IMG/VR virus record: IMGVR_UViG_3300025141_000319
Location: 1-36,835 of that record
DNA from: a virus
DNA: 36,835 bases
Strand: one strand, 5' to 3'
The first letter of the stretch is position 1. Every line of letters begins with the position of its first letter. The notes beneath the pieces are model-generated. The model did not search any database and was not told where the DNA came from. It saw nothing but the letters and a program-made list of their open reading frames with translations. The translations under genes and the position numbers were made by a program. This document shows, one piece after another, positions 1,046 through 25,073 of the stretch.

Positions 1046-4000
1046 ATGGCGAAGTTAAAAAGGAGCTTTGTTGCGGGTATAATGAATAAAGACCTTGATG
1101 AGAGGTTGATACCTCCCAATCAGTTCAGGGATGCATTAAACGTAAGCGTAGGGATATCAGAGCAGTCGGATGTCGGCGCCGTAGAAAATACCAAGGGCAA
1201 TACCAATATCAGCGCTATAACATTTCCCGGTGGCATAAACCAAAAGTGTGTCGGTGCGGTATCGTATCCTGAGGAGGGTAAGATATTCTGGTTCATAGCA
1301 TCGGATGCCAACTGCTACATCTATGAGTTCGATGAGGTCAATGACGTAACAACGAAAGTCCTTGAAGATGATAGGGGTGCCTCTACTCAGGTGCTAAACC
1401 TACAAAAAGATTGGCTCATAACGGGAGTGAACTACTATGATGGTTTCCTATATTGGACCGACGACTACAACCCACCACGGAAGATTCATGTCGGTAATGC
1501 CAAGACTAAGACACAGGCTTCGGGGGCATCGTGGTTCAATGAAGATGATCTTAACGTCATCGTGAAGCCACCACTAAATGCGCCATCATTGGTGCTTTTT
1601 AGCACTAATACACAAGAGAACAACCTCTCGGAGCGATTTATACAATTTGCTTATAGATACAAATATGACGACGATAACTATAGTGCTCTCTCATCTTTTT
1701 CTGCTACTGCTTTTTATCCAGGCAGTTTTTCTTTGGATTACGTTGAGCACATCAATGAGGCTATGGTCAATAGCATCAACAAAGTTCAAATCTCTTATAA
1801 CACGGGTACGTCGCTGGTTAAGGAGATACAGATAGTATTCAGGGAATCGCGGAGCACCAATATATATATAGTAGAGAATATCAATAAAGCCGACTTCGGA
1901 TACATTGATAACGACAGTCAGAACACCTTCTTCGATAACAGCAAGATATACAGCGTTCTCCCAGAGGCGCAGCTAACACGCTTATTTGATAACGTACCCC
2001 TAAAAGCTAAAGCCCAGGAGATAATCGGCGAGAGGCTCGTCTATGGCAACTACCTACAATTCAGGGACTTAACCCGCGATGGCGAAAGCATAAACCTTAA
2101 CTATACCTTAGAGCTTAATGAAAGCACGGCAGCAACGACGCTTAATCCTATGCGTACCTTCCGCAGTGATAGGGACTATGAGGTGGGGATAGCATACCTC
2201 GATGACTACGGCAGGATGACGACAGTACTGACGACACCAACACGGGGTAATGTTACGGCGACAGGTCTTGATGGCACATTATATATCCCTCCCGCCAATT
2301 CCGTTACCGCCAATGATATAAAATTCAGTATTGACAGTCTTGCCCCCGATTGGGCGACATATTACAGGCTTTTTATGAAGCAGAAGAAGGGCGATTACTA
2401 CTGCCTCTTCCCAATGTTTTTTGTTCAGGACGGCATATACCGGTGGTTTCAGATATCTGTTGCCGATAGGGATAAGTTCGCTATAGGGGATTATCTGATA
2501 TGCAAATCCAATGAGTCGGGACCATCACTATCGAACACTCAATATAAGGTTCTCGATATCAAGATGCAGGAAAAGGACTTTCTGGATAATGGCGAATCGG
2601 CGGGACTATATTTTAAGATCGGCGTCGAGGGCGACGACTTCAAAGATGTCAACTTAACAACTATAACTTCTAGGGTTAATGGCGCTGTAGGTCCTCAATC
2701 TTGGTCTTGGAAGGAGGGGGCATTGCAGGTTTTTAATACAGGCACCAAAACAGATATAGTAGCCCATTGCCAGAATGTAAACGACCCTATTGCATACCTT
2801 AAAAATGATAATAACAAAGACGATTTAACCATTGTTTATCCTTCGGGAGGCACTTCTCCTTTTGGTGTCTTCACTAAAGACAATAGGATTACAATAAAGA
2901 TAGTAGGAAGCACAACTATCGGTGGGATAAAAGTAGACACTTTCCAGGCATATGATCTTGACGGGGACAACTATGAAATTGATGGCGTGGCAGGCTCTGT
3001 CGCTATTACGGGGAATGGACAAACCATTGGGGGGGGCAATAGCGGGGTAGGGTTAAAGGTTTATAAAATAAAATTCAAGGATATATCAGGACATACTGTC
3101 GGCGATAGGTGGGTTATTAATGTACGGGCTAAACTAGCAAAAGGCAACAAAACAATAGGTGGGGGCACCCTACAGGATATTGATGATGGATGGGGTCCCA
3201 AAGGATCTCCTGTTCAGGGAGGATGGGCTCTTTTTCCCGATGACACATGGGGATTAGATACCGCAGGCGATATCAGCAACTCAGGGACTTCGATAGATAG
3301 ACCCATATATGCGGGAGCTCAAATATCATTTTCTATATATGAGAATAATCCCAGAGGTAAAGGCGGTAGTATAAGCACCCCACTTCAGGAGTTTACTTCT
3401 AGTAGAAACTATGTCAATATAGAAGAGTGGTTCTATGAAGATAATATCTATAGAGATTTTGTTCAATTAGATGCTAACGGAACCGATGTAGGTAATGAAA
3501 ATGTTTTATTTAGAAGAACGGTAAACTGGAAAAAACAGACGAGCTGGAATTATACCGTGGGGCGAGCAAAATTAGGAACTAATCCATTTAATCCCATAAG
3601 GATGATAATACAAGGGAAGGGGATTACTGATAGAGCCCTTCTTTTTGAAGGGCCACTCTACGAGAACTATGGATTAGGTTTAAATAATGTACCTAATTTC
3701 ATTAGAGTTAAATTTTCCCTAAAGCAAACATCGACGCCACTAATATTTGAAACTGACCCCATAGATAATGATATTGACGTATTCCACGAACTCTATGGCA
3801 CCTATGCCGTAGATCCCGCAACGGGGTACCATAATGGTAATACACAGAACCAAGCGGCAGGAGTGCCAGCGGAGGTAAACATAAATAACTTCAATGGTCT
3901 TGCCGCAAACATCCAAAACAACAACTTCAATGCCTACACCTTCGGTAATGGCTTAGAGAGCAATAGGATAAAAGATGATTTTAATGAAGACATAATACAA

Positions 4001-6802
4001 TATAGCCCCCGCGTAAATTCTATAATCGATGATTATAGGCAGGAAAGGAAGATAGACAGCATAACATGGAGCGCCCCAACGAGTAGGCTCCTCAATAACC
4101 TCAACGAGTTCAACCTCTCAACGGTAAACTTTAAGAACCTCGATATCTCCTTCGGAAGCATACAGAAGCTATATAGCAGAGACACCAACCTCCTCGTCTT
4201 CCAAGAGAATAAGGTGTCTTATGTGCCGTGGAATAAAAGTATATTGAGTACAGCATCGGGGAGCCTTAACGTAACGCAGTCATCGGAGGTGGCAGGGACG
4301 CAGGTAAGCTATGTGGGAGAATATGGTATCAGCAACAACCCCGAATCATTTGGGCAGTGGGGCAATACCTTATATTTTACCGACGTCAGAAGAGGCTCGA
4401 TAATGAAGCTCGGCGGTAATGGGCTCTTTGAGATTAGCTCTCAAGGGATGAGGGACTACTTCAAAGACCTTTTCATAGCAGAGCCACGAACGGTGCAGCT
4501 CGGTGCCGTAGATCCATACAGCGAGAAGTATGTGATGGCACACCTTACAGATACTCTCCCTTGCTCCTTTAGTGTCGGAAGCTATACCGATGGCGATACC
4601 ATTACTAAGACAAATGCAGGGCAGACCTTCTCCCTTAACATATCATCAGATGTGGCATGGGCAGCAGCCCTTGTCGGTGCGCCAGCATGGGCTTCCATTG
4701 CTCCCGCAACGGGGTCAGGCGATGGCGGAGTAACGATAACGATAACAGCGAATACGGCGCCGGGAGCGGCAGTGCGATCTACGACGATACGTTTTACTGC
4801 CTGCTCAGTGAATACCGATATAACACTTACACAGCAGAACATCGCTTTAGAGATTGACAGGGAGGTGGTAACACTAACGAATCCATGTAATGGCGGTCTT
4901 TTAAATAAGCCCTCATATGACTACACCTCAAATGCTGGTAGCGATGTAGCCTTCACAGGATATATCCCCGCAAAAGGCACCGTAGGGCGCTTTACGGGAA
5001 CAACGGGGTGGCCACCAGCAGCATCGATACCTACACCGGGAGATACGGTAACATTAAAGGGCTCGATACTAACAGATAGCGGCGCCGATAAAGGCTTTAA
5101 TGATGGTCTTAATAACAAGATGTATTACCTCGTCACGGACACGGAATATACCAATGGCGATACGGCATCACTGAAGGCAGCAGCAACGGTGGTTGGAGCG
5201 ACATATAATGCGGTATCACAAGCCTATGAGGCAGACTTTGTATATAACAGACCCTCGGATGAGAAATACCTATACCTACTGTGGGACTATACCGATAATA
5301 TCCCTGTGGGAACGACGGGATGCTCGGAGGCTCAGGTGGGGACATCGTGTGTAGACATGGACTATGGCACCAATATAGGTCAGGCATCATTGGGTTATGA
5401 CGCCAGAGATACCCCCAATAGGTTCGTATTCACATATAATGACGTAACGATATTCGATACGGGATATGTTGGTCTTAACACCACAGCAAACTATAACGCC
5501 CTTATTGCGGCGGGAGTAGCGGAGGACGATATAAGCTTAGTAGCCCCATATGGGGGAACAATAAATAATGGTGTCGGAACGGAGTCATTCTCAAAATATT
5601 CCGCCTCGATAACGAAGGGAGAGCTTACAGTATATTCCCCCTTGGCAACAGCCGATGGGTGGTGCGTGAGTTCGGTAGCGCCATCGCTGACGTCATTCCT
5701 GATATATACTACGGGAAGGGAAACGGATACTGATGTATGCACCGATACCGCCGGAACGACATATTACCATGACGGCACCAATATCGCCCCTGAGACCAGC
5801 AACACAATATATACTGATGCGGAAGGGACGACGAAGCTTGAGGGTGCGACATTATATTATGCTTTAGGGAGTTCAGGGCCTTCAAATACCTGGATAGTAG
5901 TAAATAATGCTGGTATGGTAGTTCAGACTGGAGGATGCTCGTGCGCTGAAGTCGCCATACCAGTTATTAGCACTACAACAATAACATTAACTGAAAATGC
6001 TGATGTCTCATACACTATCGATGCCACCAACAATCCATCATCGTGGGCGATAGTTAGCACCTGCAAGGAGTATAGCCTCTTTGGTGGCACGCGGGGAGCG
6101 GTATTCTCAGGGACACACTGTAGAGTCGCCGAAGCGAAAGTGATAACAGTGGGTGGTGGCAATACCACTACGCAATGTTTCTCTGGCACCACGGTATCGC
6201 AGCTATCGGGATCAACAGATGCCACATACACCCTTGTTGGGGTATGCCTTGAGGATATATTACCTAACGGCATGACTTTCGATAACGGCGTTTTGGAGGG
6301 TAAGCCTAGCGAATCGGGAGAATATGCTATAAGACTAACGGCAACGAACTGCTTCGGCACTAGCGTTGAGACGGTTGTTATCATCTCTGTGAGCCCGGAG
6401 GGATTATTCAGGTTCAATATGGACGGAGGCAGTCCCCAAGATACATCGAGTGCGGCGTGTGCTCTAACGGCGGAATACAGCTACTTCTATCACAACGGAG
6501 ACTTCGCATATCCCATACTTAATGACAGGGTATTCGTCCTCGCCGAAGATGACGATAGATTACTTGAATCGCCACCGACACTTAACGCTACGGGAGCGAG
6601 CAACTATATCCCCTTCAATGGTCAGGATAAGTGGTACCTGATGGATAATAACACCACCATTAAGATAGCCCGTGATGGCAGAGTAATAGATACCTATGAG
6701 TGTATCGCGGGAACTAAGAAAGTTACGGAGGCGGGAGCAGGAGGATTTGCTCCCGACACTGACAAAACGACGGAGGGAGGCTCGGATAAAACATTAGAAT
6801 AA
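1046..6802 (+). CDS. Large tail tube/nozzle-like protein with C-terminal BACON-like and Ig-like domains
   Basis: A 1918-residue structural protein. The N-terminus (KLKRSFVAGIMNKDLDERLI, then PPNQFRDALNVSV) resembles tail tubular B / P22 gp10-type stabilisation or nozzle proteins of crAss-like and other Bacteroidetes podoviruses, which fold as beta-propellers. About residues 1-1170 form this part. Residues about 1173-1268 look like a BACON domain: an SLNISSDVAWAA strand, PAWASIAPATGSGDGG, TITANTAP, then a closing ITLTQQ strand. Near residues 1650-1790 there is a putative-Ig (He_PIG-like) segment with LPNGMTFDNGVLEGKPSESG. The C-terminus is Gly/Thr-rich. The domains imply surface or glycan contact at the tail tip. 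Residues about 530-910 (bases 2640-3780) look more AT-rich than the flanks, which may mean an acquired insert. It is much longer than T7 gp12 (about 790 residues) because of the added C-terminal domains. Confidence 0.7.
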   Translation: MAKLKRSFVAGIMNKDLDERLIPPNQFRDALNVSVGISEQSDVGAVENTKGNTNISAITFPGGINQKCVGAVSYPEEGKIFWFIASDANCYIYEFDEVNDVTTKVLEDDRGASTQVLNLQKDWLITGVNYYDGFLYWTDDYNPPRKIHVGNAKTKTQASGASWFNEDDLNVIVKPPLNAPSLVLFSTNTQENNLSERFIQFAYRYKYDDDNYSALSSFSATAFYPGSFSLDYVEHINEAMVNSINKVQISYNTGTSLVKEIQIVFRESRSTNIYIVENINKADFGYIDNDSQNTFFDNSKIYSVLPEAQLTRLFDNVPLKAKAQEIIGERLVYGNYLQFRDLTRDGESINLNYTLELNESTAATTLNPMRTFRSDRDYEVGIAYLDDYGRMTTVLTTPTRGNVTATGLDGTLYIPPANSVTANDIKFSIDSLAPDWATYYRLFMKQKKGDYYCLFPMFFVQDGIYRWFQISVADRDKFAIGDYLICKSNESGPSLSNTQYKVLDIKMQEKDFLDNGESAGLYFKIGVEGDDFKDVNLTTITSRVNGAVGPQSWSWKEGALQVFNTGTKTDIVAHCQNVNDPIAYLKNDNNKDDLTIVYPSGGTSPFGVFTKDNRITIKIVGSTTIGGIKVDTFQAYDLDGDNYEIDGVAGSVAITGNGQTIGGGNSGVGLKVYKIKFKDISGHTVGDRWVINVRAKLAKGNKTIGGGTLQDIDDGWGPKGSPVQGGWALFPDDTWGLDTAGDISNSGTSIDRPIYAGAQISFSIYENNPRGKGGSISTPLQEFTSSRNYVNIEEWFYEDNIYRDFVQLDANGTDVGNENVLFRRTVNWKKQTSWNYTVGRAKLGTNPFNPIRMIIQGKGITDRALLFEGPLYENYGLGLNNVPNFIRVKFSLKQTSTPLIFETDPIDNDIDVFHELYGTYAVDPATGYHNGNTQNQAAGVPAEVNINNFNGLAANIQNNNFNAYTFGNGLESNRIKDDFNEDIIQYSPRVNSIIDDYRQERKIDSITWSAPTSRLLNNLNEFNLSTVNFKNLDISFGSIQKLYSRDTNLLVFQENKVSYVPWNKSILSTASGSLNVTQSSEVAGTQVSYVGEYGISNNPESFGQWGNTLYFTDVRRGSIMKLGGNGLFEISSQGMRDYFKDLFIAEPRTVQLGAVDPYSEKYVMAHLTDTLPCSFSVGSYTDGDTITKTNAGQTFSLNISSDVAWAAALVGAPAWASIAPATGSGDGGVTITITANTAPGAAVRSTTIRFTACSVNTDITLTQQNIALEIDREVVTLTNPCNGGLLNKPSYDYTSNAGSDVAFTGYIPAKGTVGRFTGTTGWPPAASIPTPGDTVTLKGSILTDSGADKGFNDGLNNKMYYLVTDTEYTNGDTASLKAAATVVGATYNAVSQAYEADFVYNRPSDEKYLYLLWDYTDNIPVGTTGCSEAQVGTSCVDMDYGTNIGQASLGYDARDTPNRFVFTYNDVTIFDTGYVGLNTTANYNALIAAGVAEDDISLVAPYGGTINNGVGTESFSKYSASITKGELTVYSPLATADGWCVSSVAPSLTSFLIYTTGRETDTDVCTDTAGTTYYHDGTNIAPETSNTIYTDAEGTTKLEGATLYYALGSSGPSNTWIVVNNAGMVVQTGGCSCAEVAIPVISTTTITLTENADVSYTIDATNNPSSWAIVSTCKEYSLFGGTRGAVFSGTHCRVAEAKVITVGGGNTTTQCFSGTTVSQLSGSTDATYTLVGVCLEDILPNGMTFDNGVLEGKPSESGEYAIRLTATNCFGTSVETVVIISVSPEGLFRFNMDGGSPQDTSSAACALTAEYSYFYHNGDFAYPILNDRVFVLAEDDDRLLESPPTLNATGASNYIPFNGQDKWYLMDNNTTIKIARDGRVIDTYECIAGTKKVTEAGAGGFAPDTDKTTEGGSDKTLE

Positions 6803-20457: not shown

Positions 20458-20945
20458 TGATAACACTATCCGTTAGTGATAATGACATACAGTTTGCCAA
20501 AGAGCAGATAAAACGCTTCACAGAAATACCTCAGGGTAAGTGGCGATACGAGGGGGTAGAGGCATGGCGAGGCATAGTATGTGAGATGCTCACATCAGAA
20601 TGGCTCGAACAAAACTTCAAAGTGCAGGAGCGAGCGAAAGGACTCGATACCACAGGAGTACCCGACGATTATGATCTCGTCATCAGCAATAAAAAGGTGG
20701 AGATAAAGTCAGCTACCAAGAACTACTTCAAATATGTGATGCCGAAAATACATGACGTCATCAATAAACCCAAAGACATATATATCGCCACGAAATATAA
20801 TGAGACCACCACCCCCAATGAGGTTATCGTGGTAGGATATATGAATCGTGAAGATATCTTCAACCACCCCATAGAGCAGGATAAGGGAGCGCCATACTAT
20901 AAGGTGCCCCTAAAAGCTTTCAGCCCCTTTAGAATAAGTGTGTGA
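20457..20945 (+). CDS. PD-(D/E)XK-family nuclease
   Basis: A 162-residue protein with the restriction-enzyme-like core. Glu43 lies in an early helix (RGIVCEMLTSEWL), Asp73 follows in DDYDLVIS, and the E-x-K motif is VEIK with Glu82 and Lys84. A central strand-helix (KDIYIATKY, VIVVGYM) completes the fold. Candidate roles are Holliday-junction resolution, packaging-linked cleavage or host-DNA degradation; sequence alone does not decide. It is coupled by a TAATG overlap to the giant virion gene, so it is expressed late, which favours DNA maturation or packaging over early host takeover. Its 3' end overlaps the convergent phosphoesterase gene by 17 bases. Confidence 0.68.
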   Translation: MITLSVSDNDIQFAKEQIKRFTEIPQGKWRYEGVEAWRGIVCEMLTSEWLEQNFKVQERAKGLDTTGVPDDYDLVISNKKVEIKSATKNYFKYVMPKIHDVINKPKDIYIATKYNETTTPNEVIVVGYMNREDIFNHPIEQDKGAPYYKVPLKAFSPFRISV

Positions 20946-22050
20946 TACGAGCCACCTGACCGTGAGACTTGTGGTGGACGAAGCCCTCAACGGCTTTGGG
21001 GGCGTGGGCATAGCCCTTCCTGTGGTGCCACCCATCGGTACCGGAGGGGGAGCGTAGGCTCTCCACGGTAACGCCGATATGGTCTTTGGAGACTTTATGG
21101 TGGAGGTGGTGCGTATAGATGTATTTGTGTTTCGTCTTACCCCACTCCTCCTTGGCTTCCTGAGCCATAAGAAGAGGTAGGTCGGAGAGCTTACCCATAT
21201 CGCCATGAGTAGTACCGATCAGGTTGTTGCCATACCTATAGTATTTCCTGTGGTTGATACTGACGTCGAACGTTATGTTGGCGCAGTTCATAAACCAGGT
21301 GCTGATGGTATCGGCGAGGAAGAAGCCATTGGTGTAGTCGTGGTTGCTGGGGTTGAAGATGAAGTGTACATCGGCGATAGCGAGGAGCATCTCGATGACC
21401 TCGACATATAACTTCTTGGCGACGAGGAAGTTCTCATACCACATCCCATCGGTGTCTTGTGGTGTTCCCTTCGTCGTCGTCCGGTGGGGAGTGTCGATAT
21501 GGAGGATGTCATTACCCGCAACGAAGAGTATCTTATCGATATTGAAGCCCTCGGATTTATCCAGTATCCCCTGAACGCCATCCTTGACGCGTTGCACTGC
21601 TATCTGGGAGTTGTATTCCTCTCCCGTCTCTAGTGATGTCGCCAACTTACCGATGTGGATATCGGCGGGATCGACAACGAGGAGGTGTCCATCGCGGACA
21701 TTCTCCCTAACGATGGTGGGATACTTGGGGGCGTGCTCGCGCATGGAGTCGATGATTTCATCGCGCACCTCGTCATAGCTGACGATGTTTTCGTCTTTGA
21801 CATGGATGGAGAAGTGCTCCCCCTTATACCAATAGTGGTTAACCTTATCGATGGGAAGCCCCGCTTCCTCACACTGCTCTACTAATCCCGTGCTATCTAT
21901 TTTCTTTACCCACCGACGCACCGCCTTGCGGCAGCCATCCTCTGTTATGCTTAGCTTGAATTTCTTTATCAGCTCACGCGCGATATGTGTTTTGTTCTGG
22001 GTAACATTTTTATATAGATAGATAGCATATTCACGCTGTTCCTGTGTCAT
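20929..22050 (-). CDS. Calcineurin-like metallophosphoesterase with N-terminal HTH-like region
   Basis: A 373-residue enzyme with the binuclear-metal phosphoesterase motifs in order: D130-x-H132 (ADIHIGK), GND at 179-181 with His184 (AGNDILHID), N236-H237 (NPSNHD), THGD at 281-284, and a final THHLHH. Residues about 1-60 look like a helix-turn-helix region: TQEQREYAIYLYKN, then GCRKAVRRWVKK. The family includes Mre11/SbcD-type DNA nucleases and phage phosphoesterases. No SbcC/Rad50 partner is present here. Among replication genes a DNA end-processing or repair role is plausible but unproven. The start overlaps the upstream small ORF by 20 bases; the stop lies inside the convergent nuclease gene. 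Confidence 0.78.
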   Translation of the reverse strand: MTQEQREYAIYLYKNVTQNKTHIARELIKKFKLSITEDGCRKAVRRWVKKIDSTGLVEQCEEAGLPIDKVNHYWYKGEHFSIHVKDENIVSYDEVRDEIIDSMREHAPKYPTIVRENVRDGHLLVVDPADIHIGKLATSLETGEEYNSQIAVQRVKDGVQGILDKSEGFNIDKILFVAGNDILHIDTPHRTTTKGTPQDTDGMWYENFLVAKKLYVEVIEMLLAIADVHFIFNPSNHDYTNGFFLADTISTWFMNCANITFDVSINHRKYYRYGNNLIGTTHGDMGKLSDLPLLMAQEAKEEWGKTKHKYIYTHHLHHKVSKDHIGVTVESLRSPSGTDGWHHRKGYAHAPKAVEGFVHHKSHGQVARITHLF

Positions 22051-22262: not shown

Positions 22263-25073
22263 CTATACATTTACTACTTCACAGCTACCTCCCGCACAGG
22301 CGAGCTCGCCACTCAAGTCGGTATTATCGTCACTCTCAACGACTTTAGTGAGGTCAATCTCTGTCAGCCTGTCATAGCGGCGCACGAAATCCGCCTCCGC
22401 AATAGGCTCGAAGGGAGCCTGCTGGTAGACGCCGCCATCATAGGGAAGGACGGAGAGACCGTTGAACTCGCTCTTATGTTTCCACATCCACTCCATAACC
22501 TCGTCCCACTCGTCCTCTTTTATGGACACCGTAGCTGAGACATTGTTAGTATTTGATCCCGAAACGTGCCCCTCGGCGACCCATTCCCTGTTAAATTTCG
22601 ATACCCTTTCCAATAAATCCAGTGCCGTCTCATCCTCGCGAGTGATGGCGCTATCGACAGCTTTTTGGGGTATCTCAATGACAGCGGTGTTGGGGAGGGC
22701 GTGGTATTCTGCTACTAGCTCAGGGTGGTAGTGACTCAGATATTTATATAGAGCCTCATCTTTGGTGCATTGCATCCTCCTGATGTAGAACTTCGAGTGC
22801 CATGCGTGGATGCCACTGGAGGTGCCGACGACACAACTCGTTGTCCCCGAAGGCTTTATGGTTGTTAGCCTAGCCGCAGGATTTATCCCTATTAATTCCG
22901 CTACTTCTATGTTGGTATCTTTAACATATGCCGCCGCCATCTGAAGATCGTACTTCAGTATCTCGCCATTACATATCCCCGTCATACCGACACCGATGAG
23001 GGCGTCCTTTTCTGTTGTCGCCTGCCATATGGGTCTGAGGTAGTGGAAGTCGGTGTATCCCGCCTGTAGGGTGCCGAAGAATGCCGCTACCTGACACCTC
23101 CTATTAAGGTCTTCCTGGCTCTCGATGTTACCGACATTTACTTCCGTGAGGTTGCAGAAAGAGTATGGCCTAAGGGCGATCTCGCAGTTGTGGGCAACGA
23201 GACCATTAACTATACCCCAATGGGTGTCGTCATCGATGCTGAAATCATATACCGTATCTATGCCAATAGATTTTATTGAATACACAAAAGGAGCCTTAAC
23301 CTTAATGGTATCTTCGAGGGCTTTCCTCTTATATGTTTGTACGAAGCCGATCTTAGAAGCAAAAGATATCATGTCTTTTAGATTAGAGATATTAATATCA
23401 TAGGACTGGCGGCACGTATAGGTGCCGTTGGCGAACTCAACATCAGTAGATTTGTTGGTAGTGATATATGCCGATTCCATACCAAGGTCATATAAAGCAT
23501 CCAATACCTGTATCGCCAATCGGTATGATGTAGTCTTTAAGGCTACCCTATGGTTGGTAATGACGCTGCCATTAGCGGAATATAAACCACATAGCATCTC
23601 CGCCGTAACATTATCGGGGAGGAGCCTATTGAAGGTGCGTTGTCGAGTGTCGATGCCACGCCCCTCCATGACACCATACGATACCGCAGTGGTAAATGTT
23701 ACCTTAGCATTACCGCTCCCGAAGAGGGCTTTTACCTCATCATCTTTAGTGGGAGTGAAGCTACACTCTATATTCTTATGTATTGATTGGTCTTTTCTGA
23801 AAGAGCCGTCCCCAATTAGGAAGCCATATTTTATATCTTCAGAAGAGAAGTCGCTGCGGTGGGAATAGAAAGGCATTATCTTCTTTCCTTTAAGGTTGGA
23901 GACCTCACATTCGGTGCCGTCATTAAGCATAAACCTATGGTCGCCAGTAGCCTTTACGGTGTATGGTTCCTTGGTGTTACCTGCTTTTATTTCAAAAAGC
24001 TCCTTCTCGCCAGTACACCATGCCGTGGCAGGCTTTACCTCTCCCCTATAGTTTATTATATTGAAGTCGCTATCAGCTAATGAGGATATCGCAATATTGC
24101 CCTCGGTAGTTTTTAATAGCTCGTCGCCACCAAGGCAGCATGGGTTGCAACCGTAATCCCTATCGTTGGAGAAATATATCCCCGGCTCGCCACAACCACT
24201 ATTTTGTATCTTCTCCCATAGTGAGCTAAAGAATTTCTTCGTTACCCTATGCCTAAGTATCACTGCCGAGTTATTGGCGCGACCCCTCTGTGGGTTCTTC
24301 TCCCACCACGGTCCCGCCTTCGCAGCCAGCATGACATCATCATCGGCAGAGAAGAGCGATATCAGGGCAGCACGGCGGATGCCACCAGCAAGGACGGCAT
24401 CAGCGATATGGCATACTATATCGTGGGCTTCGATGGTCGTGAGCTTCTGCCCATCGGTTTTCCTTTCGAGGATAAGCTCGACATTAAAGAGGCACCTCTT
24501 CAGGGGCTCCGGTCCGGGGGCTTTCCCTCCCGCCGTTACGAGGCGCGATCCCTTGGCTCTGATATCAGTGAAGTCGAAGTGGGGCTTCGTTTTCCTATCG
24601 CCGAAATATGATGAGAGGAGGTGCCTGACGGCATCAGCCCACCCCTCGATGCTATCGCCGACGAGGTATTTCTGCTCCTTCAGGGGCTTACGAATCTCAG
24701 GGAGGTTATTGATATGGTGGTACTGCACCGAGAAGCCTACTCCCGTGCCTCCAAGGAGGAGGAACATTATCTCCGAGAACGACCTGTAGTCATCGATGGG
24801 GAGGTAGGCGCAGTTGTATACCCGAGACTCATTCTTTACTATAGCGGGACCAGAGAACTGTGCCGCCCGCATACTCATCAACACCTTCTTATCGCGAATC
24901 ATCGTCATTTTTGAGGTAATAGCTATAGCGAGGGAGGGATATTTCTTTTTCATCATACCTTCATACCTATCACATATCTCGTCCCAGGTCTCCCGTCTGT
25001 TGGCGTGAGATAAAAACTTGGCGTACTTATTAAAGACGACGATGTCACTAAGAATTTTGTTGTTCTTTTCCAT
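22263..25073 (-). CDS. nrdJ: Class II (adenosylcobalamin-dependent) ribonucleotide reductase with intein
   Basis: Makes deoxyribonucleotides with a B12-generated thiyl radical. The 936-residue precursor holds a 317-residue intein (residues 313-629); the spliced enzyme would be 619 residues. The monomeric reductase signature is complete. Cys88 (VYNCAYLP) and Cys640 (SFCNLTEVN) correspond to the redox pair and Cys312 (GCNPC) to the thiyl cysteine. Glu631 follows in the C-x-E arrangement. After splicing Cys312 and Cys640 are 11 residues apart, as Cys408 and Cys419 are in the Lactobacillus leichmannii enzyme. The C-terminal CAGGSC gives the re-reducing pair Cys926/Cys931. It is shorter than the bacterial enzyme (about 740). 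A single-gene, oxygen-independent reductase suits a phage. The A-rich leader AAAAACAACACCATT precedes the ATG. No second reductase subunit is seen. Confidence 0.92.
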   Translation of the reverse strand: MEKNNKILSDIVVFNKYAKFLSHANRRETWDEICDRYEGMMKKKYPSLAIAITSKMTMIRDKKVLMSMRAAQFSGPAIVKNESRVYNCAYLPIDDYRSFSEIMFLLLGGTGVGFSVQYHHINNLPEIRKPLKEQKYLVGDSIEGWADAVRHLLSSYFGDRKTKPHFDFTDIRAKGSRLVTAGGKAPGPEPLKRCLFNVELILERKTDGQKLTTIEAHDIVCHIADAVLAGGIRRAALISLFSADDDVMLAAKAGPWWEKNPQRGRANNSAVILRHRVTKKFFSSLWEKIQNSGCGEPGIYFSNDRDYGCNPCCLGGDELLKTTEGNIAISSLADSDFNIINYRGEVKPATAWCTGEKELFEIKAGNTKEPYTVKATGDHRFMLNDGTECEVSNLKGKKIMPFYSHRSDFSSEDIKYGFLIGDGSFRKDQSIHKNIECSFTPTKDDEVKALFGSGNAKVTFTTAVSYGVMEGRGIDTRQRTFNRLLPDNVTAEMLCGLYSANGSVITNHRVALKTTSYRLAIQVLDALYDLGMESAYITTNKSTDVEFANGTYTCRQSYDINISNLKDMISFASKIGFVQTYKRKALEDTIKVKAPFVYSIKSIGIDTVYDFSIDDDTHWGIVNGLVAHNCEIALRPYSFCNLTEVNVGNIESQEDLNRRCQVAAFFGTLQAGYTDFHYLRPIWQATTEKDALIGVGMTGICNGEILKYDLQMAAAYVKDTNIEVAELIGINPAARLTTIKPSGTTSCVVGTSSGIHAWHSKFYIRRMQCTKDEALYKYLSHYHPELVAEYHALPNTAVIEIPQKAVDSAITREDETALDLLERVSKFNREWVAEGHVSGSNTNNVSATVSIKEDEWDEVMEWMWKHKSEFNGLSVLPYDGGVYQQAPFEPIAEADFVRRYDRLTEIDLTKVVESDDNTDLSGELACAGGSCEVVNV
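23187..24137 (-). mobile_element. Intein with LAGLIDADG homing endonuclease in the reductase
   Basis: A self-splicing, in-frame 317-residue element. It starts at Cys313 (CLGGDELLKTTEGN, block A) and ends with GLVAHN at residues 624-629 (block G), followed by Cys630 as +1 nucleophile. Block B is ATGDHRFM with the T-x-x-H motif; block F is VYDFSIDDD. Two LAGLIDADG-type helices are visible at precursor residues about 416-425 (YGFLIGDGSF) and 493-502 (LCGLYSANGS). The second has Asn where the catalytic Asp is usual, so the endonuclease may be impaired. Length fits a full intein. The boundaries come from the exact continuity of the flanking reductase motif. Confidence 0.93.

Follow-up and report, generated by a model that had tools for sequence, protein, structure and literature searches.

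Conserved sites are generally preferred by inteins (PMC2814812), and the inteins of phage ribonucleotide reductases (RNRs), together with split NrdJ genes, have been reviewed earlier (PMC3653736). Among the described systems, NrdJ-1 (marine metagenome; 8ubs) is a split intein without an endonuclease in a class II RNR, with NPC and SEI as its native flanks (PMC13123727); in the native NPC context its splicing proceeds with a half-life of 26 s (PMC13123727). In the same protein, the only phage relatives with an annotation are the RNR inteins of Nodularia phages (vB_NspS-kac68v161 gp185 and relatives, 'intein-containing RnR'). Furthermore, an intein of the class I R2 subunit (NrdB) of Aquifex aeolicus lies between RNR catalytic residues, and its post-translational removal has been shown (PMC8772380). 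Here, an intein in a viral NrdJ gene was analyzed within a window of 36,835 nt, the whole stretch of DNA under study. The features on which the analysis relies are as follows.

22263-25073, minus strand: NrdJ precursor open reading frame, 936 aa without an internal stop (open reading frame list and translation)
24138-25073, minus strand: N-extein, NrdJ residues 1-312, ending in GCNPC (open reading frame, translation, 1L1L alignment, TIGR02505)
24147-24149, minus strand: Cys309 (position -4), which forms CNPC beside intein Cys1 (homologue alignments)
24138-24140, minus strand: codon of the thiyl Cys312, the last residue of the N-extein
23187-24137, minus strand: intein of 317 aa, class 1 with LAGLIDADG (profile matches, alignment, AlphaFold model)
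24135-24137, minus strand: codon of intein Cys1
23808-23810, minus strand: block C acid Asp110 (GFLIGDG), intein residue 110, kept
23571-23573, minus strand: block E Asn189 (YSANGSV), at the position where the catalytic Asp is expected (intein alignment)
23187-23192, minus strand: intein His316-Asn317
22263-23186, minus strand: C-extein, NrdJ residues 630-936, including the stop codon, starting CEIALRPYSFCNL

The window intein shares with NrdJ-1 the class II RNR site NPC^[S/C]EI (the caret marks the insertion point), Cys1 and the splicing-domain fold, with a Foldseek TM-score by target of 0.70. It differs in being contiguous and in carrying a LAGLIDADG domain and a +1 cysteine, where NrdJ-1 is split and has a +1 serine; its 317 contiguous residues thus set it apart from NrdJ-1-type split inteins, the site alone being common, and a phmmer comparison of the two inteins returned no match. 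The Nodularia phage inteins, 35-39% identical to it over the full length, have the same blocks and also YSANGSV, but they lie one codon upstream (NP^CGEI), in a distant RNR, with the thiyl cysteine as the +1 nucleophile. The Aquifex intein differs in subunit and class, its host having a di-iron site and no thiyl cysteine. More closely related are NrdJ inteins in IMG/VR (L180, L118, L194, L184, L159, L103, and L137), which occupy the same site, belong to the same clade (100/98), carry the same YSANG motif and are up to 43% identical to the window intein, the nearest inteins being about 41% identical; they differ in lying on unannotated contigs, with the endonuclease shortened in L137 and the block C acid absent in L184. 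Scans for close relatives based on the intein returned L003 (a 25%-identical N-terminal fragment), the Nodularia phage genome, and L091, an IMG/VR contig that has 4,841 nt in common with the window without a difference and hence represents the same virus, so that these scans provide no independent support. The fecal phage MT835482 was rejected as an RNR intein, its intein lying in a terminase-like protein.

An RNR intein at the NPC site is already known, and on these comparisons the window adds another member. The novelty implied in the original prediction was accordingly not borne out, NPC^[C/S]EI being the native site of NrdJ-1 (PMC13123727) and one used in about 100 other viral stretches. 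The GTNPC^C signature (GTNPC followed by an intein start) was found by pattern scan in 113 viral stretches; the GTNPC-anchored patterns demand Thr at position -4, so that the window itself escapes them. Contiguous inteins are present in 42 of the 113, and at 45 further RNR loci the C-terminal half of a split intein is located on the same stretch, both halves thus being present; the remainder are cut off, undetermined or not RNRs. Split loci such as L104, L106, L107, L109, L110, L111, L112, and L115 are NrdJ-1-like and apparently uncharacterised, and L213 (GTNPCCLVGSSEII) presumably resembles NrdJ-1 itself.

On homology, the host protein is a monomeric class II ribonucleotide reductase (NrdJ, RTPR type). 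The spliced product would comprise 619 aa and reads GCNPC-CEIALRPYSFCNL across the join. The C-extein holds the +1 Cys630, Glu631, the redox Cys640 and the C-terminal CAGGSC pair, Cys926 and Cys931; Cys312, Glu631, and Cys640 of the precursor become residues 312, 314, and 323 once spliced. In the alignment to the L. leichmannii RTPR 1L1L (E 9e-38), C312, E314, and C323 of the spliced protein take the positions of C408, E410, and C419, which bears out both the predicted position of the intein directly after the thiyl-equivalent Cys312 and the predicted recovery, by splicing, of the 11-residue spacing between catalytic and redox cysteines. The features of a monomeric class II RNR are all present, namely the thiyl Cys, Glu at +2, the redox Cys at +11, the partner Cys and a C-terminal CxxxxC. 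The NCBIfam RTPR model TIGR02505 is by far the best for the spliced protein, at 258.5 bits against an equivalog cut-off of 340, and the Pfam barrel-domain model also fits, with a score below its cut-off.

The predicted coordinates proved exact: the minus-strand interval 23187-24137 spans 951 nt and encodes 317 aa (residues 313-629 within the 936-aa frame). The class II NrdJ intein identity proposed for the insert agrees with the RNR homology, the profile matches and the RNR-intein relatives. The LAGLIDADG_3 match has an E-value of 5e-8 and 33.5 bits, above the cut-off of 22.5, while the Intein_splicing match (E 1.7e-7, 31.6 bits) lies slightly below the Pfam cut-off of 35.8. Together with identities of 35-43% to other RNR inteins over the full length (viral RNRs, same or adjacent site), these E-values place the intein match far beyond chance. 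Since the Intein_splicing and RTPR scores fall below their cut-offs, the spliced RNR and the intein are both regarded as divergent members of their respective families. The hallmarks of class 1 were found, comprising Cys1, the block B TxxH, the block F Asp and His, the C-terminal His-Asn and the +1 Cys630; C1, T64, H67, D298, H306, and H316 are invariant across 12 aligned inteins, and N317 is present in 11 of them. A search of PDB sequences gave marginal matches only. The AlphaFold model of the intein (pLDDT 87.6, pTM 0.85) displays the HINT horseshoe fold, matching PI-SceI, Mxe GyrA, Ssp DnaB, Npu DnaE, and NrdJ-1; in Foldseek PI-SceI and PI-PfuI were best, followed by mini-inteins, with I-DmoI for the endonuclease part. 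Sequence and predicted fold together mark the insert as a complete class 1 intein.

Both predicted splice sites were confirmed, the junction residues being NPC|CLGGD...VAHN|CEIALRP and the codons AAC CCA TGC | TGC CTT GGT ... GCC CAC AAC | TGC GAG ATC. NPCCEI is read straight through in all 80 of the best uninterrupted viral homologues (IMG/VR, 60-74% identical), a set chosen as best-aligning, with NPCCE contained in one of the two scan patterns, which is therefore uninformative on intein frequency. Uninterrupted homologues that do not join NPC to CEIALRP, named in the original prediction as evidence against it, numbered 0 of 80. In the same 80 the thiyl Cys, the Glu, the redox Cys and Cys88 are invariant, and the C-terminal pair (Cys609/Cys614 in spliced numbering) is kept throughout. 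Microcystis phage Mel-JY01, Vibrio phage VPs20, and Oceanospirillum phage PD0307 (55-57% identical) are likewise uninterrupted at NPCCEI. The RNR genes of VPs20 (L007 1450-3345) and PD0307 (L008 1501-3348) are labelled 'recombinase' in public records. As the homologues and the three phages all read NPCCEI, the +1 cysteine is a residue that this RNR group normally carries and no intein scar, and excision would yield a normal 619-aa enzyme.

Taken as a whole, the locus is best explained by a cis-splicing class 1 intein at NPC^CEI of a phage NrdJ, likely a homing parasite, and we place the probability of this reading at roughly 0.93. From the conserved residues and the model, we infer that the intein splices. 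Cys1 would attack the Cys312-Cys1 peptide bond to form a thioester, after which the N-extein would be transferred to the +1 cysteine of the C-extein. Cyclisation at His316-Asn317 would then free the intein and ligate NPC to CEIALRP, returning the thiyl Cys312, Glu314, and the redox Cys323 of the 619-aa enzyme to their canonical spacing. The unspliced precursor is presumably inactive, because 317 residues part the thiyl Cys from the Glu and the redox partner.

It had also been proposed that splicing may respond to oxidation or metals. For this no specific support was obtained, the -1 Cys being common to all inteins at the site and Cys309 solitary. In such a scheme a disulfide or a metal at C309-N-P-C312-C1, with the +1 Cys, would allow oxidation or zinc to keep the precursor inactive. 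Cys1 does adjoin the extein Cys312, and a CxxC arises through Cys309; moreover, there is precedent in M. smegmatis DnaBi1, which is blocked by H2O2 through a catalytic-Cys disulfide (PMC6195587), and in other inteins where extein cysteines serve as partners (PMC6195587). However, NrdJ-1 still splices in seconds in its native context with the same -1 Cys (PMC13123727), and class 1 inteins vary in this respect, DnaBi2 not being redox sensitive (PMC6195587). Position -4 is Thr in 80 of 80 empty homologues and in 16 of 16 other aligned rows, so that Cys309 is unique to the window; the change from Thr to Cys at 309 needs at least two base changes. No conserved pair of intein cysteines near the junction was found in the clade alignment, in which Cys242 of the endonuclease domain is conserved, Cys77 partly, and the others not. 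The AlphaFold model of the full precursor (pTM 0.62) has a pLDDT below 50 at residues 308-312 and 630-634, leaving the junction geometry unreadable. Conditional splicing is thus considered improbable, and slightly less probable still is the specific proposal that the Cys309-Asn-Pro-Cys312-Cys1 cluster gates splicing by redox or metal and confines dNTP synthesis to the reduced cell; redox control of splicing is a guess. If splicing were conditional, dNTP supply would be tied to the redox state during infection.

Under the main reading, the element most likely persists as a mobile parasite of a position where any mutation would be fatal to the enzyme. We infer spread by homing from the distribution of inteins across the trees. 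In the extein tree the window groups with the uninterrupted L011 and L012 (100/100; 71-74% identical), while the closest inteins (L180, L118, and L194) sit in another, more distant RNR branch. With the nearest RNRs free of the intein and the nearest inteins in distant RNRs, the distribution is patchy, a pattern to be expected from homing or from repeated loss. The G+C content of the intein is 43.5%, against 51% in both exteins; this would be a weak sign of a separate origin, as the exonuclease gene adjoining the RNR (20929-22050) is also at 51% and the window at 43.7%.

The case for homing is less strong in view of block E, where residue 189 is Asn. LAGLIDADG enzymes normally carry Asp or Glu at this catalytic position. 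Two LAGLIDADG helices (blocks C and E) are present in an endonuclease fold for which Foldseek returned PI-SceI, PI-PfuI, and I-DmoI, and an acid ends only the first of them, Asp110. At the block E position Asn occurs in 9 of 9 members of the window intein's clade (including L180, L118, L194, L159, L184, L103, L137, and L004) and Asp in 3 of 3 Anaerolineae inteins. A literature search on Asn in the second LAGLIDADG motif gave nothing useful. With its layout complete but Asn at one of its two catalytic positions, the LAGLIDADG domain may today cleave both strands, nick or do neither; what stands is the domain homology. Conservation of the rest of the YSANG motif within the clade argues against simple decay of the endonuclease. 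A wider form of decay, in which the intein has become a pseudogene that no longer splices and leaves the phage reductase inactive, would accommodate Asn189 and the trimmed or lost nucleases of the clade (L137, 248 aa; L171, 133 aa; L155, 126 aa). Loss of the nuclease nevertheless leaves splicing unaffected, and the intact splicing and RNR catalytic residues in an open frame of 936 codons would be unexpected in an element long dead, which makes this explanation very unlikely. Phage RNR genes do carry introns and are a frequent target (PMC3653736), yet a group I intron or free-standing homing gene is hardly conceivable here and was ruled out by the continuous, stop-free frame and the splicing blocks, with a full intein of splicing fold and Cys/His-Asn/Cys junctions.

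The most unusual observation concerns relatives of the window intein, among which the insertion site appears to shift by one codon; the window itself has the NPC^C form. An NP^C start matches 60 other stretches, of which 15 hold a contiguous insert followed by an RNR C-extein that can be recognised, and the same site is also used in Nodularia phages and in Anaerolineae RNRs. At NP^C the thiyl cysteine itself would have to act as the +1 splicing nucleophile. The intein tree requires no fewer than five switches between NP^C and NPC^C on its starred branches. Within the window's clade (100/98), the Nodularia intein is of the NP^C form and all other members are NPC^C; L223 (NP^C) clusters with L132 and L147 (NPC^C). 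RNR inteins at two sites flanking the thiyl cysteine can be seen at L004 1531-4980 and at the L223, L132, and L147 junctions. At about position 1294 of L266, a tandem duplication of YLNNDKDWGTNPCI, the peptide at the N-extein junction, directly precedes an NP^C intein start.

Elsewhere in the window, positions 1046-6802 encode a virion protein of 1918 aa. Its N-terminal part matches the muzzle protein of crAss-like phages (E 8e-17), and it has a BACON domain, a possible sign that the phage belongs to Bacteroidota hosts and has a tail of podovirus type. As a single case, the locus is one more RNR intein. Considered with its relatives, the radical-cysteine loop of viral NrdJ emerges as a heavily used site, in which inteins that are contiguous, trimmed or naturally split are found together. 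This set could supply new split inteins for protein engineering, and it is suited to the study of intein decay, splitting and change of position.
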